From: Synechococcus sp. PCC 7335
GTDB taxonomy: Bacteria > Cyanobacteriota > Cyanobacteriia > Phormidesmidales > Phormidesmidaceae
DNA: 64,000 bases
Reading direction: 5' to 3'
NCBI RefSeq assembly: GCF_000155595.1
Contig: NZ_DS989904.1
Location: 4,333,987 to 4,397,986, forward strand
Numbering within the stretch: the first letter of the stretch is position 1; each line of letters begins with the position of its first letter. The notes under the pieces were generated by a model. It was not told the origin of the DNA, ran no database searches, and saw only the letters and a list, made by a program, of their open reading frames with translations. This document shows, piece by piece, positions 8,186 through 53,284 of this stretch. A program made the translations under genes and the position numbers.

Positions 8186-8375
8186 ACCTGTACGTACTTA
8201 GGGATGATCAAGTAGCTTGAACGCAATAGACTCTTTGAAGCAGTACCATAGCGGGTTTTGAGCCAATCTGTAAAGCAGCAAGGCTACGACAATATGGCAT
8301 GATAATGACTGTATCTACATAGGTCTACGGGTCTAGCTTACGGTTTGTACCGACTCAACCCTTCTATTTGAATAG

Positions 8376-9611
8376 ATGGAGACTCTCAATTTACTCATTT
8401 CGGATGAAACGCTACGGGACGGAGAACAGCAAGTTGGTCTCTTCTTTGAAGACAAAACAACCCTAGCTAACCTGATTGCTCAAACTGGGGTCCAACAGAT
8501 TGCGCTGATGCCTGCTATTCATACTAGCGAGGCAAAATTGGTTAGTAGCCTGGTTGACAGCGGCCTAAAGCGTCAAATCGTTGCTTCGACGATGATGAGA
8601 CGCGCCGCAATCGAGCATGCCAAGACCTGCGGTGTGCGACAGGTCATTCTTTTCCATGCTGTGTCCGATCGACTGCTGTTTCTAAGGGATCTAGAAATCG
8701 CTAAAGACCCGAGGTTCAAGGGCAAAACAATCGACGATGATATCGATCTTCCGGTCATCCAACGCAGCCGTCAGCGGATGTTGATTCATGCCTTAGAACA
8801 TGTACGCTACGCAGCTGAACAAGGACTCAGAATCTGCTTTGCCGCAGAAGATGCGAGCCGAGCGGATAATGATTTTCTAGTCGAGTGTATCAACACGCTA
8901 TCGCCCTACATTGACGAATTTTTACTTTGCGATACAGTCGGTAGCCTGACGCCTAAGCGGACAGCTCTGTGGATTCAAAACCTGTTGCAACATACTCGCG
9001 CAGTACCGCTATCTGTCCACTTTCACAACGATATGGGGCTGGCTCTAGAAAATACGATTCAGGCTGTGTGTGCGGGCGCTAGGGGCATTTCAGGCACGTT
9101 CGGAGGAATTGGAGAACGAGCGGGTAATGCGCCGATTGAACAGGTTCTAAAGGGGCTGCGATCGCGTTTTGGCTGGGAAGTGGCAGGCATTGATTACGAT
9201 GCACTAGATCAGGTGGTTGACTATTTACACGCGCAGGGACATCGGCCTCATGCACCTTATTCGCGTCAGGCTCAGCGGCATGAGTCGGGCATTCACGTTA
9301 GCGCTTTGTTACGCGATCGCCGCAGCTACAGCATTTTTCCTCATCAGCAGCCAGAGATCTGGTTTGGTAAAGGCAGTGGATCGAGTAACTTTCAATATCT
9401 ATTTGAACAGTATCTCAACTGGCCCCTACCCCAGTGCGAATACGAACGACTAAGAGCCATTGTCAAAGCGATCGCCATCCGAGAAAAGCGATCTTTTTCG
9501 GTAGAAGACATGCTCAAACTAATCCAGGAAAGAAACCTGATACCTCTTTTGAACCCACTGACCTTGGACTCACGAAGGGCTAGTCAGAATAAACATCTGA
9601 TAGGAGCATAG
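8376..9611 (+). CDS. 2-isopropylmalate/homocitrate synthase family enzyme, hphA-like
   Basis: This 411-residue member of the DRE-TIM metallolyase family has signature 1 (DETLRDGEQQVG, residues 10-21) and signature 2 (SVHFHNDMGLALENT), with GERAGNAPIE after it and HESGIHV in the accessory region. Such enzymes condense acetyl-CoA with a 2-oxo acid. The C-terminal LeuA regulatory domain that confers leucine feedback is missing, as in NifV/homocitrate synthases and specialised enzymes. It is divergent from the PKS across 190 bp and convergent, 65 bp away, with a fused isomerase. A condensing enzyme plus fused isomerase resembles HphA and HphCD of Nostoc punctiforme homophenylalanine synthesis; that is inference. 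Homocitrate synthase or a second isopropylmalate synthase are alternatives. The ATG at 8376 is the first in-frame start and gives the conserved N-terminus. Confidence 0.8.
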   Translation: METLNLLISDETLRDGEQQVGLFFEDKTTLANLIAQTGVQQIALMPAIHTSEAKLVSSLVDSGLKRQIVASTMMRRAAIEHAKTCGVRQVILFHAVSDRLLFLRDLEIAKDPRFKGKTIDDDIDLPVIQRSRQRMLIHALEHVRYAAEQGLRICFAAEDASRADNDFLVECINTLSPYIDEFLLCDTVGSLTPKRTALWIQNLLQHTRAVPLSVHFHNDMGLALENTIQAVCAGARGISGTFGGIGERAGNAPIEQVLKGLRSRFGWEVAGIDYDALDQVVDYLHAQGHRPHAPYSRQAQRHESGIHVSALLRDRRSYSIFPHQQPEIWFGKGSGSSNFQYLFEQYLNWPLPQCEYERLRAIVKAIAIREKRSFSVEDMLKLIQERNLIPLLNPLTLDSRRASQNKHLIGA

Positions 9612-9676
9612 TCCGCGTCGTATCATGGTGACTGGCAGACATAACGCTCAGAACACCACTATCGTCTAGAACATCA

Positions 9677-11380
9677 CTATGGCAACTGGTCGCTAATTTC
9701 TCCACGCACTGCTGAAATTGCCACTGTTCTAGGTGAGGCCAAATAGTTCCGTCCGGTCGGATCGCCGCTGCGGCCCTTAAAATTACGATTGGTCGCATAG
9801 ATTCCGGTTTCTTTTGCGCCCAAAACACCGCGCCCCGCATTGATGCAGGCACCACAGCCCGACTTCAAGACGGTTGCACCCGCTTGTTCTAAAGTTGACA
9901 GATAGCCCATAGATTCTGCCTGCTCTTTAACCGCCTGTGAAGCTGGAACGACAAACAAACTCACCGCCGGATTGACTCGCTGCCCCTTGATTGCTGCTGC
10001 TGCTGCTGCGAGATCATGTAGCTTTCCGCCCGTACAAGACCCGATGAAGGCCCGAGTGATTGCCACACCATCAAGCTCATGAACAGGAACAACTCTATCG
10101 GGCGTCGGTGGCGCAGCTACCTGTGGAGTTAGCTGACTAAGATCAAACCGATAGCTCTGTTCATACTGAGCGTCTAGGTCGGCTGTCACTTCAGTGAAAG
10201 GCTGATTCGTATGCGCTTTCACGTATTCTCGGGTGGTCTGGTCGACTGGCATTAAGCCGCACATAGCCCCGCACTCTATGACCATATTTGCCAACGTCAT
10301 TCGCTCGTCCATCGGCAGCTGTTCAACAACGCTGCCAGCAAATTCTACAACTGTCCCAGTTGCGCCGTGACATCCAATCTGACCCAAGATAAACAACATA
10401 ATATCTTTGGCGCTTACCAACTCAGGCAGCTTTCCAGACAGCTCAATCCGCAGCGTCGCTGGCACTCGAATCCAAAGGTCACCCATCGCGAAAATGTTCG
10501 CCATATCCGTAGTCCCTACACCTGTAGAAAAGCTACCAAACGCGCCATAAGTGCAGCTATGAGAGTCTGTGCCAGCAATCATCATACCCGGTCGTACAAA
10601 GCCTTGCTCAGGTAGAAGAACGTGACAAATTCCAGCGGCTTCACCAGGAGAAACAACATCAAACAGATGGCAGCCCTGCTGTTTGGCAAAGTCCACCATC
10701 TGCTGGTGCAGAGAGATCGCACCACGATCTTGGCGAATGTCGTTGACTTGGATGAAGTGATCGGCGACTAGAACGATCTTGCCTGGATCCCACACAGTGG
10801 CGTTCGGTCCAAACTGCTGCTGAAATAGCGCTCCGACCGGGCCGGCGATCGCATCGTGAGACATCGCCAAATCCACCTTGGCAAACACCACCTCTCCAGG
10901 CCGTACGTATGAGTTTCCTGAGGCCTGCGCCAGCAGCTTTTCGGCTACCGTCATCGGTCGAGCTAACGTCTGACTTTGAGGAATATCGACTTTCCCTTGT
11001 CGTCGTTGCAGGTTAAATGCGATCAGGCCACCAGCAGCGACAATAGCCTCTACCGCTGGATTCTGCAAAGGTTTTCCAATAACCTCTAGCGGCAGTCCAA
11101 TGTTGATACTGTTGCGATAGAAGATTTCAGCAAAAGACTTCGCCCGAACTTTCTGAATCCCCGCCGCCTGAATGGCAATAGGGGCAAACTCCCTGCTAGA
11201 TCCACACCCAAAGTTCTCGCCGGCTTCGATCACGTCGTATTTCAAAAGGTTGCCCGGTCCGATCACATGCTCTAGCGCATAATGTGCAAGATGGTCTAAA
11301 TCACCATTAGTGCCACGTTTAGCTGGGATAATGTCATCTGTATTGATGTTGTCCCCTAACCTAAGCACCTGCTGAGTCAT
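9677..11380 (-). CDS. Fused small-large 3-isopropylmalate isomerase/homoaconitase-like protein, hphCD-like
   Basis: An aconitase-family hydro-lyase with both subunits in one chain. The swivel (LeuD-like) domain is first: NTDDIIPAKR substrate loop and GENFGCGSSRE. The large LeuC-like catalytic domain follows: GTDSHSCTYGAFG, then the three [4Fe-4S] cysteines in IGSCTGGK and SGCGAC. The swivel-first order is the reverse of aconitase A. By family it isomerises a 2-alkylmalate to a 3-alkylmalate. I start it at ATG 11380 (MTQQVLRLG), where swivel homology begins; a GTG at 11413 would add 11 residues and overlap the upstream methyltransferase by 11 bp. About 567 residues. Probably cotranscribed with the methyltransferase, and paired functionally with the condensing enzyme at 8376-9611. 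Substrate not determinable from sequence; the Hph pathway is my leading inference. Confidence 0.82.
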   Translation of the reverse strand: MTQQVLRLGDNINTDDIIPAKRGTNGDLDHLAHYALEHVIGPGNLLKYDVIEAGENFGCGSSREFAPIAIQAAGIQKVRAKSFAEIFYRNSINIGLPLEVIGKPLQNPAVEAIVAAGGLIAFNLQRRQGKVDIPQSQTLARPMTVAEKLLAQASGNSYVRPGEVVFAKVDLAMSHDAIAGPVGALFQQQFGPNATVWDPGKIVLVADHFIQVNDIRQDRGAISLHQQMVDFAKQQGCHLFDVVSPGEAAGICHVLLPEQGFVRPGMMIAGTDSHSCTYGAFGSFSTGVGTTDMANIFAMGDLWIRVPATLRIELSGKLPELVSAKDIMLFILGQIGCHGATGTVVEFAGSVVEQLPMDERMTLANMVIECGAMCGLMPVDQTTREYVKAHTNQPFTEVTADLDAQYEQSYRFDLSQLTPQVAAPPTPDRVVPVHELDGVAITRAFIGSCTGGKLHDLAAAAAAIKGQRVNPAVSLFVVPASQAVKEQAESMGYLSTLEQAGATVLKSGCGACINAGRGVLGAKETGIYATNRNFKGRSGDPTGRNYLASPRTVAISAVRGEISDQLP

Positions 11381-11402
11381 AGCGTTTCCGATGGTGAAAG
11401 TT

Positions 11403-12035
11403 CTAAGGGACACGATACTGGGTCAAGGTGCGATCGCGAAATCGGCTGTCTTTGTTCGTAAAGCGTTCTTGCTTCACCCTCTCTAAGCCCGCTTTCTCAA
11501 AATGCGCTAGCTCATCAAACGATAGGGGCCAGGGCGCATCATCCCCTGGATCTCCGTCATCTTTACGCATGTAAGTCGCAATCAGTACGGTTCCTTGCGA
11601 GGTGCCTAAAGCGGCAATGTTTTCAATCACCTCTTCTCGAACGCTTAGCGGCAGTGCCTGAATCGTTCTAAAGTCAAAAACTAGATCGAACTTACCTAGC
11701 CAGTCAGCAGGCAGGTTAAACAGATTAGCAGTGACGTAGTTGACTAGAGAATGGGGAAAGCGACCCTTTGCCCAGGCGATCGCGCTTTTAGAAATATCAA
11801 ACCCCGTTACCGCAAACCCAGCCTTTGCTAGCGCCTCAGCATCATCACCTAAGCCACAGCCCACAACTACCGCCGATCGCCCTTCCCCCGCCACCTCATT
11901 CTGCTCTAGCCAATCAGTTAAGTACGCCGTCGCGCTAGGTAAAGCCCAGGGCACTTGGCCAGTATCGCCATCCGCGTTTGCATACAGCGGCTCAAACCAA
12001 TCAGAAGCTCGCCCTCTAATCGTTTCTTCGGTCAT
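11403..12035 (-). CDS. Class I SAM-dependent methyltransferase, thiopurine methyltransferase-like
   Basis: The 210-residue protein has an SAM motif I (VVVGCGLGDDAEALAKAGF, residues 57-75) followed by the acidic strand-2 end (VTGFDIS) and LVFDFRTIQALP as motif post-II. The N-terminal WFEPLYANADGDTGQVPWA resembles the tellurite-resistance/thiopurine methyltransferase branch. Its stop lies 22 bp upstream of the ATG of the fused isomerase on the same strand, so the two are likely cotranscribed. It could be a housekeeping detoxifying methylase or a tailoring enzyme of the adjacent pathway; the sequence does not decide. Starts at ATG 12035. Confidence 0.85.
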   Translation of the reverse strand: MTEETIRGRASDWFEPLYANADGDTGQVPWALPSATAYLTDWLEQNEVAGEGRSAVVVGCGLGDDAEALAKAGFAVTGFDISKSAIAWAKGRFPHSLVNYVTANLFNLPADWLGKFDLVFDFRTIQALPLSVREEVIENIAALGTSQGTVLIATYMRKDDGDPGDDAPWPLSFDELAHFEKAGLERVKQERFTNKDSRFRDRTLTQYRVP

Positions 12036-12650: not shown

Positions 12651-13286
12651 GTGATAGATCTAACAACTTTGATTTCATTTGGGTTAGCAGCGGCTGTCTT
12701 GGTAGCGATGCCAGGGCCGGCCACCTTGTATATTGTGACCCGTAGTCTAGACCAGGGAAGGCAGGCAGGTCTTGCTTCTGTATTAGGAATCTCTACAGGC
12801 TCGCTAGTGCATTTTTTTGCAGCGGGGCTAGGGCTATCCACTATCTTGATGACCTCGGTAGTCGCGTTCCAGGCGGTGAAGTATATCGGCGCGCTGTATC
12901 TGATCTATTTAGGCGTTCAGAAGCTGCTATCTAACGAAGTGCTATCGATTGAACAGGTGGTAGCACCGCGATCGCTTACCAAGATTTTCTACCAGGGCGT
13001 GGTTGTCAACGTTTTGAACCCGAAAGCAGCGGTCTTCTTCTTAGCGTTTCTGCCACAGTTTATCGATCCGACAGTAGGTCCGATTTGGCAGCAGCTGATT
13101 CCCCTGTGCTGTGTGTTTATCTGCATTGGCCTAGCAGGCGATAGCACCTACGCTCTAATCGCTGGCAAGACGCGGCAGTGGCTGGTTCAAAATGCTTCGT
13201 TTTTACGGCGACAAAAGTATGTTGTCGGCGCTACCTATATTGCTTTGGGCATGGCTGCGGCAACGGTCTCGCCAGCTCGTAAATAG
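12651..13286 (+). CDS. LysE/RhtB family amino-acid exporter
   Basis: A 211-residue hydrophobic protein with about six transmembrane segments and the family N-terminus, including AMPGPATLYIVTRSLDQGRQAG, the conserved P-G-P and cytoplasmic loop. The family exports amino acids such as lysine, threonine or homoserine lactone from the cytoplasm. It starts at GTG 12651 behind a purine-rich stretch (aagagg) at 12636-12641. The next gene starts 12 bp after its stop, so they form an operon with the binding lipoprotein. Export of an unusual amino acid made by the neighbouring chain-extension enzymes is possible but speculative. Confidence 0.88.
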   Translation: MIDLTTLISFGLAAAVLVAMPGPATLYIVTRSLDQGRQAGLASVLGISTGSLVHFFAAGLGLSTILMTSVVAFQAVKYIGALYLIYLGVQKLLSNEVLSIEQVVAPRSLTKIFYQGVVVNVLNPKAAVFFLAFLPQFIDPTVGPIWQQLIPLCCVFICIGLAGDSTYALIAGKTRQWLVQNASFLRRQKYVVGATYIALGMAAATVSPARK

Positions 13287-13298
13287 GAGATTAGTCGT

Positions 13299-14306
13299 AT
13301 GAGCTGTGCACGCACTTGGCTAACCGCTCTACGAGTGGCTACAGGAGTGGCTACCGCTCTAGGAATTATGCTAGGAAGCTGCACTACTAACGGACAGACA
13401 ATAGGCGATACGAATGACATGCCGTTCGTAGCCGTAACGCAGCTAGTAGGGGATCCGACGCTAAATGTGCTACGCGAAGGGATAAAAGATGAGCTGTTGG
13501 CAGCGGGCTATGAAATTGGGACAACGCTGCGCTGGGAATGGCGAAGTGCCAAGGGAAGTCCGGCGACCGCCAGGCAGATCGCGACTAAATACGCCCAGGC
13601 CAGTCCCGATGTGATTGTGGCGATCGCAAACCCTAATGCAAAATTAGCAGCAGCAGTCAGCCAAAATATTCCGATTGTCTTTTCAGCAGTCGGCGATCCA
13701 GTAGCTGCGGAACTGGTGAGCGACTTAGATAGACCAGGCGACAATATTAGTGGCGTCAGCGATCGCCTACCGATCCCCCAACAGCTAGCGCTCATCAAAG
13801 AGATTGTGCCAACCTCGCTCACCCTAGGAATAATCTACGACGTGGAGCAAGGTAGTACGTCTAGCTTAGTCTCACTAATCAACCAAAGTGCGCTAGAGCA
13901 GGATCTTGCGGTTCAAGCGGTTACTGTTTTATCGCCTGATGAGACAGCAGCAGCAGCACGGGGATTAGTCGGATCGGTAGATGCCATTTATATCCCACCA
14001 GGTAGCACACCAGCCGCCTTAGAAACGATAGTTCGAATAGGAAGGAACAACAAGCTACCGGTGTTTGCAGGGGATGTAGAGGCTGTAGAGAGCGGCGCGA
14101 TCGCCACACTCAGCTTCGACTATTACGATGTGGGTCGTCAGACCGGAGAAATGATCGTCCAAGTACTAGCAGGCAAGAACCCTGGTGATTTACCTGTTGA
14201 ATTTGTTGAGGATCTACAGTTAACTGTCAACCAAGCCGCCGCTGATGCCGTGGAGGTTCAGCTACCGAGCACCGTCATCTTTCGCGTTGATAGGACCATC
14301 GAATGA
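13299..14306 (+). CDS. ABC transporter substrate-binding lipoprotein (TrpX/DUF534-like)
   Basis: The 335-residue protein has an N-terminal hydrophobic signal ending in a lipobox (LGSC, residues 26-29), so it should be lipid-anchored and periplasmic. The body matches the ABC_sub_bind family (FVAVTQLVGDPTLNVLREGI at the start, ANPNAKLAAAVSQNIPIVFSAVGDPV in the middle), which binds amino acids or related ligands. The start ATG 13299 has a TAGGAGA Shine-Dalgarno that overlaps the stop of the exporter gene. No permease or ATPase follows: the next gene, valS, is convergent. An orphan binding protein next to an exporter is unusual. Confidence 0.85.
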   Translation: MSCARTWLTALRVATGVATALGIMLGSCTTNGQTIGDTNDMPFVAVTQLVGDPTLNVLREGIKDELLAAGYEIGTTLRWEWRSAKGSPATARQIATKYAQASPDVIVAIANPNAKLAAAVSQNIPIVFSAVGDPVAAELVSDLDRPGDNISGVSDRLPIPQQLALIKEIVPTSLTLGIIYDVEQGSTSSLVSLINQSALEQDLAVQAVTVLSPDETAAAARGLVGSVDAIYIPPGSTPAALETIVRIGRNNKLPVFAGDVEAVESGAIATLSFDYYDVGRQTGEMIVQVLAGKNPGDLPVEFVEDLQLTVNQAAADAVEVQLPSTVIFRVDRTIE

Positions 14307-52087: not shown

Positions 52088-53185
52088 CTATTCTGAAAGA
52101 GCTGTTTGCAGTGCCTCTCCCATTGCTTTGCAGCCGACCGCTTTCATTCCTTCAGACATAATGTCACCAGTCCGATAGCCTTGATCCAACACCGCCAGCA
52201 CAGCTTGCTCTATTCGATCTGCAGCAGTAGGTTGGTCTAGTCCGTAGCGAAGCATCATCGCCACGCTAAGCACTTGGGCCAGCGGGTTAGCCTGGTCCTG
52301 CCCGGCGATATCGGGAGCCGATCCATGCACCGGTTCATAGACGCCAGGGCCACCTTCCCCTAAGCTAGCCGAAGGTAGCATACCAATACTGCCAGTGAGC
52401 ATCGCAGCCGCATCAGAAAGAATATCGCCGAATAGATTACCAGTAACGATCGTGTCAAACTGTTTGGGCGCACGGACAAGCTGCATGGCGGCATTATCGA
52501 CGTATAGATGGGACAGCTCAACGTCTTTGTAGCTTTCGCCAAGCGCAGTGATGCGATCGCGCCAAAGCTGCGACACCTCCAGCACATTCGCTTTGTCTAC
52601 AGAACACAGCCGTCGCGATCGCTTTCGTGCAATCTCAAATGCCACCCGGCCGATCCGATCAATCTCTTTGCCGGTATAGGCCATCGTACTCACCCCACGC
52701 TGATCGCCATCTTCTGTCTCAAAGATGCCTTTAGGCTGACCAAAGTAAACACCGCCTGTCAGCTCGCGAACCACCATAATATCAACCCCTTCGACTACTT
52801 CTGGCTTCAGCGAAGATGCCTGAAGTAGTTGCGGCAAAATCGTTGCTGGGCGCAAATTAGCGAACAGGCCTAGTCCAGCTCTAAGGCCTAGCAATCCAGT
52901 TTCCGGACGCTGCGATCGCGCCAAGTTATCCCATTTGTAGCCCCCGATCGAGGCAAGTAGAACAGCGTCACTTTGACGACAGGTGCTCAGCGTTTCCTCT
53001 GGCAAAGGAACACCAGTTGTATCGATGGCTGTCCCACCAATGGGCATTTCCGTAAATTCAAACTCAATTGCCTCCTGCTCTCCGATTTGCTTCAAGACGC
53101 TCACTGCTACAGCCATGATCTCTGGGCCGATACCATCTCCAGGCAGGAGAGTAATCCGATAAGAGTGGGCTGTAGAATCTGTCAT
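52088..53185 (-). CDS. leuB: 3-isopropylmalate dehydrogenase
   Basis: From ATG 53185 (MTDSTAHS) the protein is 365 residues, the usual LeuB length. It has the opening [28 protein letters not shown] for substrate binding, [15 protein letters not shown] and [18 protein letters not shown] for metal and catalytic residues, and [12 protein letters not shown] for NAD. It oxidatively decarboxylates 3-isopropylmalate in leucine synthesis. Distance (40 kb) from the chain-extension genes argues that this is the housekeeping copy. Confidence 0.95.
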
Positions 53186-53284
53186 GACTAGCACGGGTGT
53201 GAGGGACGGGTGCCATAATACCCGATTCAGAGGTGCTGTAGAATGCACTGGTATTGAATAGTCAAAGGTTGGCGTTTAAGCGAT

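Follow-up and report, generated by a model that had tools for sequence, protein, structure and literature searches.

The window analysed here is a stretch of 64,000 nt (G000:C1:4333987-4397986) from Synechococcus sp. PCC 7335, whose 6.0-Mb genome assembly (G000) consists of 11 contigs and is 95% complete. It contains a pair of convergent genes, hphA and hphCD, beside a gene for a large polyketide synthase (PKS), and we give about even chances to the reading that this pair encodes the first two enzymes of a chain extension serving the synthesis of a lipid, with release by an alpha-oxoamine synthase (AOS), and not that of a peptide. The positions of the pair and its convergence next to the PKS had been described in an earlier note on this DNA, and matched the open reading frames (ORFs) exactly:

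8376..9611, plus strand: predicted HphA-type 2-arylmalate synthase of a PKS-associated clade, 411 aa
9677..11413, minus strand: HphCD-type fused LeuD-LeuC isomerase, 578 aa
2..8185, minus strand: 5′ portion of the loading PKS gene, which continues beyond the window (complete gene G000:C1:4333367-4342171, 2934 aa)
8186..8375: intergenic stretch of 190 bp between the divergent PKS and hphA genes
52088..53248, minus strand: housekeeping LeuB, outside the pathway and listed for contrast (523 bits; cut-off 353)

The synthase contained PF00682 alone in a Pfam search, without the LeuA_dimer regulatory domain, in agreement with its earlier description as regulation-free, and the isomerase consisted of the small-subunit domain PF00694 followed by the large-subunit domain PF00330. 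Since the GTG start listed for the isomerase gene overlaps the neighbouring gene, the ATG at residue 12 (position 11380) may be its true start. The loading PKS has the order McyG-like adenylation domain, acyl carrier protein (ACP), ketosynthase (KS), acyltransferase (AT), dehydratase (DH), enoylreductase (ER), ketoreductase (KR) and ACP, and the divergent order of PKS and hphA recurs in relatives. Close to the isomerase gene, positions 12651-14306 (plus strand) encode an exporter of the LysE family and a substrate-binding protein resembling TrpX.

Comparison with other cyanobacterial loci gave good support to the identity of the enzymes as HphA and HphCD, as put forward in the earlier note, and of a protein encoded 2.0 Mb away (G000:C1:2325147-2326196) as HphB, so that HphB and HphCD occur in the same genome as HphA. 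Four such loci (L044, L045, L048 and L050) carry hphA-hphB-hphCD in one run beside large nonribosomal peptide synthetases (NRPSs), which we take to be of the anabaenopeptin type, and two of them match records of Planktothrix rubescens PCC7821 (L100) and Microcystis aeruginosa LEGE 91341 (L102). Identities to these operons were 55–56% for HphA, 62–65% for HphB and 68–69% for HphCD, and their HphBs are just 39–40% identical to LeuB of the window genome. The window LeuB was itself rejected as HphB, being only 40% identical to the HphB candidate and scoring as LeuB. The statement that HphB is missing therefore holds within the window, and not for the genome. The suggested NRPS destination was not borne out, as this 95% complete genome has a single NRPS-like protein with a Condensation domain (1378 aa, G000:C1:858 kb) and none near the hph pair; an adjacent NRPS is, however, part of the genomic context and does not itself define an HphA.

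Housekeeping leucine, homocitrate and citramalate readings were rejected on the basis of separate genes, scores and tree position, and a duplicate leucine or homocitrate pathway is a scarcely credible reading of the hph pair, even though superfamilies are shared. The profile search yielded six rows, two of which are pieces of the window hphA, and hence five HMGL proteins; the genes separate from hphA encode a LeuA of 560 aa (835 bits against a cut-off of 532), a homocitrate synthase scoring as NifV (525 bits against 463), and two proteins which we take from their sequence to be a second LeuA-like and a CimA-like enzyme. The best NCBIfam score of the window synthase was for NifV, at 217 of 463 bits, far under the cut-off. 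LeuC is a separate gene at 2.45 Mb, and PF00180 matched two proteins, namely LeuB of the window and a divergent protein encoded at 2.325 Mb, which at 314 bits falls short of the LeuB cut-off of 353; the latter is the second leuB-like gene for which the earlier note had advised a search, and our HphB candidate. With separate LeuA, LeuC and LeuB genes present, the pair is neither a sole copy nor, as shown below, part of a housekeeping clade, the two outcomes against which that note had warned. The PF00180 search gave no isocitrate dehydrogenase match in the genome, and this gene is perhaps within the missing 5%. A plasmid search returned 322 matching records, each with <60% identity, and the best 15 of the 322 were mostly homocitrate synthases.

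A contig scan for HphA relatives, from which at least 78 loci were kept, gave an HphA-type group down to 52% identity, followed among the matches listed by one Holophagaceae metagenome-assembled genome (MAG) at 38% and others at ≤32%. In a tree of 86 rows, which did not include the N. punctiforme HphA and from which the fragment L134 was left out, 57 rows formed a branch with 100/100 support outside LeuA, NifV and CimA. This branch consisted of 56 HphA-type rows (85/88 as a branch of their own) and the Holophagaceae row, and the phylogeny thus grouped the window synthase with the HphAs of hph operons beside NRPSs. Within it, the window hphA sits in its own clade of 21 rows (100/99), with the NRPS-linked rows falling outside. 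The gene is divergent from the start of a loading PKS in 13 of these 21 rows, with 12 direct neighbours and one intervening gene in L085, and no such pair was present in the other eight (L086, L092, L093, L096, L097, L098, L129 and L132). None of the ORFs beside the 21 clade HphAs was an NRPS in a comparison with three reference NRPSs, except for the loading PKS itself. Two loci outside the clade with a McyG/AerA-type domain near HphA (L119 and L123) were not counted as PKS-type; in L119, from Phormidium sp. LEGE 05292, an NRPS-linked HphA lies a few kb from a PKS with a McyG-like loading domain (from 14325, plus strand).

The distribution of HphA is patchy, with presence in six of 58 genomes of relatives (including G000 and, as a fragment, G028) and in 14 of 386 genomes of a phylum sample at E 1e-65, again including G000. 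Some of the loci are unusual in other ways. In two Symploca MAGs (L096:3074-5095 and L129:135-1748, both plus strand) the HphA-type synthase lies within a longer ORF, which in L096 includes a fused TauD-type dioxygenase domain and adjoins a gene for a 474-aa protein without a Pfam family. In Microseira wollei (L131:9932-11228, plus strand) the HphA-type gene is split over two ORFs and apparently broken, and no AOS was found there at E 1e-90. A record titled Candidatus Gracilibacteria (L132, JAAUUT010000106.1) contains HphA, HphB, a PKS-AOS and a loading domain nearly as in Hydrococcus, and is likely a mislabelled cyanobacterial bin.

Five substrate positions have been reported to set HphA apart from homocitrate synthase (HCS) and isopropylmalate synthase (IPMS), with residues H, R, T, S and H in HCS and L, E, S, N and E in IPMS (PMC12961565). 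The window HphA has S71, C154, A156, L183 and S239 at these positions, matching the HCS or IPMS residue at none of five and the HphA residue at two of five. The numbering was anchored on L099, not on the N. punctiforme HphA, and in a cross-check the residues of 6KTQ and 3RMJ agreed with the published table at five and four positions, respectively, position 73 being gapped in the latter. The PKS-associated clade differs from the other HphAs at position 157 (C, Y, S or W in its 21 rows; D or E in 29 of 35 other rows), at position 73 (S in 20 of 21 rows, with one gap) and at W267 (fixed in the clade; I in 34 of 35 other rows). These differences would suit an HphA that takes another 2-oxo acid, such as 4-hydroxyphenylpyruvate or a branched-chain acid, with homotyrosine or an aliphatic amino acid lengthened by homologation as the product. 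We consider this possible, on the unlikely side, as no position has the IPMS or HCS residue and the three altered positions are those described as less conserved among HphAs (PMC12961565). Such a substrate would be compatible both with lipid synthesis through AOS release and with use of the Hph product as a PKS starter.

At the second locus, the first 4 nt of the HphB ORF are also the last of a PKS gene encoding 2666 aa, with the domain order KS-AT-DH-ER-KR-ACP and ending in a class I/II aminotransferase-fold domain. This terminal domain is predicted to be an AOS of the serine palmitoyltransferase (SPT) family. Its best solved match was SPT (1.3e-69), and it carries the lysine, aspartate and histidine motifs of the SPT/BioF/KBL-type fold-type-I pyridoxal phosphate family, in which we assume the usual roles for the lysine, D/H and stacking-histidine motifs. 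It scored below the curated cut-offs (SPT 323 of 640 bits, bioF 367 of 426) and is thus a member of the family without being any named member. We regard this PKS with its terminal AOS as the likely partner of the Hph enzymes. The longest ORFs of PKS-AOS and HphB overlap likewise in G002 (L077), a genome of the same genus, where homology to HphB starts ~70 bases further on; its HphA and the one in the Cf. Phormidesmis sp. LEGE 11477 record (L084) are identical. HphB follows directly after AOS in L015, L077, L191, L192, L193, L194, L196 and L197, of which L194, cut by a contig edge, includes no more than the end of AOS, with HphCD next as well in L193 and L196. Of 13 genomes with a PKS-fused AOS, HphB was adjacent in six (G430, G433, G434, G435, G436 and G444).

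The strongest single reason for treating the two loci as one pathway came from a one-contig genome of a different family (G057), which holds the whole set together within ~33 kb, at about 2522.9-2556.1 kb. This cluster encodes HphCD (67% identical), HphB (65%), HphA (58%), a PKS-AOS (67% in its AOS), a loading PKS, a KS (52%), a START-like protein (40% over 157 aa), a short-chain dehydrogenase/reductase (SDR, 63%), a GT4-like glycosyltransferase (52%) and a PagL-like protein (48% over 207 aa). It also has two proteins like the one encoded upstream of the GT4 gene in the window genome, one of which was scanned and contained a PMT_2 domain. The same kinds of gene occur in the window genome, spread over two places. 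We then determined co-occurrence in 49 genomes reached via 50 HphA loci, excluding G476 (broken HphA) and G478 (fragment) from the count. AOS relatives were found in 23 of the 49 genomes at E 1e-90, and a PKS-fused AOS in 13 of 19 genomes with an HphA of the PKS-associated clade against none of 28 with another HphA (Fisher p 2e-7, with relatedness ignored). In the phylum sample, AOS was present in 19 of 386 genomes at E 1e-95.

The loading domain (first 640 aa of the PKS) matched McyG best among solved structures (3.2e-117), followed by StsA (~1e-106), with fatty-acyl-AMP ligases at 6e-36 and weaker. A label as fatty-acyl-AMP ligase was dropped, McyG being far nearer in the PDB, although the best NCBIfam names are those of fatty-acid ligases, all below cut-off. 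In comparison with the McyG and StsA positions given in PMC11253843, the loader has Val where amino-acid domains have Asp235 (as McyG V227), Met at the position of StsA M415, and a Trp corresponding to W272 of McyG. The starter may therefore be an aryl, hydroxy or keto acid as readily as a fatty acid, and of the earlier term 'lipid PKS' the PKS is real, with its lipid nature not settled by a loader whose nearest structure is McyG. In a loader tree of 42 rows, the PKS-type loaders were separate from a 19-row set (97/85) holding frames of ~1400 aa, which are presumably AerA/SpuA-like, judging by their size. Of the 19 clade-HphA genomes, 17 have a loader that groups with that of the window, G437 being counted from its HphA locus and G477 from a 579-aa frame only.

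AT, DH, KR and ACP motifs were present in both PKSs of the window genome, with an AT motif (HAFH) that we take to be of the malonyl type. The window KS has TACSTS and the other KSs TACSSS; the ER pattern matched the loading PKS only, with ER-type domains seen by Pfam in both PKSs, and the DH pattern was unmatched in the G057 PKS-AOS. The SDR had two solved matches, the second being the 3-ketodihydrosphingosine reductase TSC10 (3.2e-27), and its kin (59–60% identical) lie near AOS genes in L080, L203, L204, L208, L255 and L258.

Beyond the family identities, gene linkage, co-occurrence and catalytic motifs read from the sequences, we infer the substrates, the order of the PKS proteins, the use of the Hph product by AOS and all later steps of the following pathway. 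HphA would join acetyl-CoA to an aryl-pyruvate, HphCD would isomerise the product and HphB would oxidise it, after which a general aminotransferase could yield an aromatic amino acid one carbon longer, homophenylalanine or a near relative. The PKS with the McyG-like loading domain would start an acyl chain and reduce it, and the free-standing KS and the second reducing PKS module would elongate it. The terminal AOS would then condense the ACP-bound chain with the homo-amino acid, with loss of CO2 and release of an alpha-amino ketone. The SDR, with its similarity to 3-ketodihydrosphingosine reductase, would turn this ketone into an amino alcohol like a sphingoid base, to which the glycosyltransferases of the cluster perhaps add a sugar.

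Several observations weigh against such a lipid pathway with AOS release. Six of the 19 clade-HphA genomes have no PKS-fused AOS (G431, G437, G438, G442, G470 and G474). In G437 it is lacking at a contig edge. A search of 41 genomes at E 1e-70 gave no HphB in G431, G438, G442 and G474 either, as would be the case if a contig were missing or the pathway had been lost; G470, with HphB present, is a clear exception. HphA without a PKS-fused AOS was seen among the relatives too (G022 and G028). Conversely, G340 and G172 have a PKS-fused AOS and no HphA, so that the AOS architecture does not need a chain-extended amino acid and PKS-AOS extends more widely than Hph. HphB is away from AOS in six genomes (G432, G439, G441, G443, G462 and G477), was not found in G440 with its partial PKS-AOS, and in G057 lies in the cluster yet not adjacent to AOS. 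The Hph-linked AOS rows cohere weakly (64/73), and specificity came down to five weakly discriminating columns (58, 151, 173, 184 and 312), of which column 58 alone was placed near the loop controlling amino-acid entry. The SDR scored 107 bits against the 400-bit KDSR equivalog cut-off and thus only resembles TSC10, the best NCBIfam names of the loader were fatty-acid CoA/AMP ligases, albeit below cut-off (273 of 572 and 214 of 600 bits), and one PKS-side loader row (L270) came from G469, a genome with another HphA.

Some of the same evidence may be read as Hph feeding the start of the chain, with the McyG-like domain loading an extended 2-oxo acid, or some acid derived from it, and AOS using another amino acid. 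The loader is nearest to McyG and to the keto-acid domain StsA and keeps the Val and Trp272 described above, matching loaders are found in more clade-HphA genomes (17/19) than PKS-AOS (13/19), hphA is the divergent neighbour of the loader gene in 13 of 21 tree rows, and the Hph-free genomes G340 and G172 lack a loader at E 1e-85. StsA, however, has the order A-KR-T, with a ketoreductase between adenylation and carrier domains (PMC11253843), and the window PKS has none between its adenylation domain and ACP, so that an alpha-keto starter would need unreduced extension. In addition, HphB adjoins the AOS gene in the window genome and not the loading PKS, and the fatty-acid names among the NCBIfam matches make a fatty-acid starter possible. 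On balance we consider a starter role for Hph rather unlikely. Less likely still is a product that serves both ends of the chain, or a pool of free homo-amino acid used for instance by the NRPS with the single Condensation domain, with the PKS only partly connected. The presence of that NRPS-like protein and the split of the hph genes over two loci would fit this, but in G057 these genes share one cluster with PKSs of the same types, and their linkage recurs in several lineages.

If the preferred reading of lipid synthesis with AOS release is correct, the Hph set, described only for peptides in the literature examined, would also make lipids in at least 12 cyanobacterial genomes. We tentatively propose, at somewhat less than even chances, a widespread and undescribed cyanobacterial lipid class, in which a homologation pathway is dedicated to AOS release and yields sphingoid-base analogues with a phenethyl-type head replacing the hydroxymethyl group of serine, possibly with an aryl starter and a sugar. 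The hph genes beside lipid-building instead of peptide-building machinery would thus point to an undescribed sphingolipid-like family with a predicted structure, and give a concrete structure class to seek in culturable strains. Sphingoid-base analogues are often bioactive. As to the amino acid, SxtA of saxitoxin biosynthesis uses arginine. Acceptance of a bulky aromatic one by an AOS would also be notable, since in one study the wild-type AOS handled four small amino acids and had to be engineered for others (PMC11906848). Among the papers listed in searches of the open-access literature, none was seen to join Hph genes with AOS or to describe this PKS, and the LEGE strain names led to no paper, which is weak as evidence of absence.

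The window system shares parts with several known ones. McyG of microcystin synthesis and the window PKS both have a loading adenylation domain with Val at the Asp235 position and Trp272, and the order adenylation-carrier-KS-AT; the window module differs in having DH and ER and, by Pfam, no methyltransferase, a domain that McyG contains. All three enzymes and the LeuD-LeuC fusion are common to the window genome and the anabaenopeptin-type Hph pathway of N. punctiforme (PMC12961565, PMC6562525). Compared with the Hph pathway of NRPS clusters, the window genome has its own HphA clade, PKS neighbours, hph genes split over two loci, and one Condensation domain, with none nearby. The cyanobacterial AMP-ligase/AOS lines (Synechococcus B1XHP8, PMC3870968) and the AOS loci with ligase and SDR genes found in this analysis have the AOS family, a ligase and a KDSR-like SDR in common with it. 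Their AOSs are 44–66% identical to that of the window genome and form a separate 31-row set (100/96), mostly in frames whose length leaves no room for a fused PKS, and with no hph gene in the loci covered. AMP-ligase-like, AOS and KDSR-like SDR genes were also found together, without hph in the stretch covered, in L080, L203, L204, L208 and L258, and such groups are candidate makers of cyanobacterial sphingoid bases. In Pseudomonas fluorescens, the PKS SgaA and the AOS SgaB make sphinganines from serine, which SgaB takes almost exclusively over alanine and glycine, and the KDSR-like SgaC was proposed for the reduction step (PMC12134224). Both this and the window system have a type I PKS that passes its chain to an SPT-like AOS, as well as a KDSR-like SDR; in that of the window, AOS is fused to PKS and is accompanied by several PKS proteins, a McyG-like loader and the hph genes.

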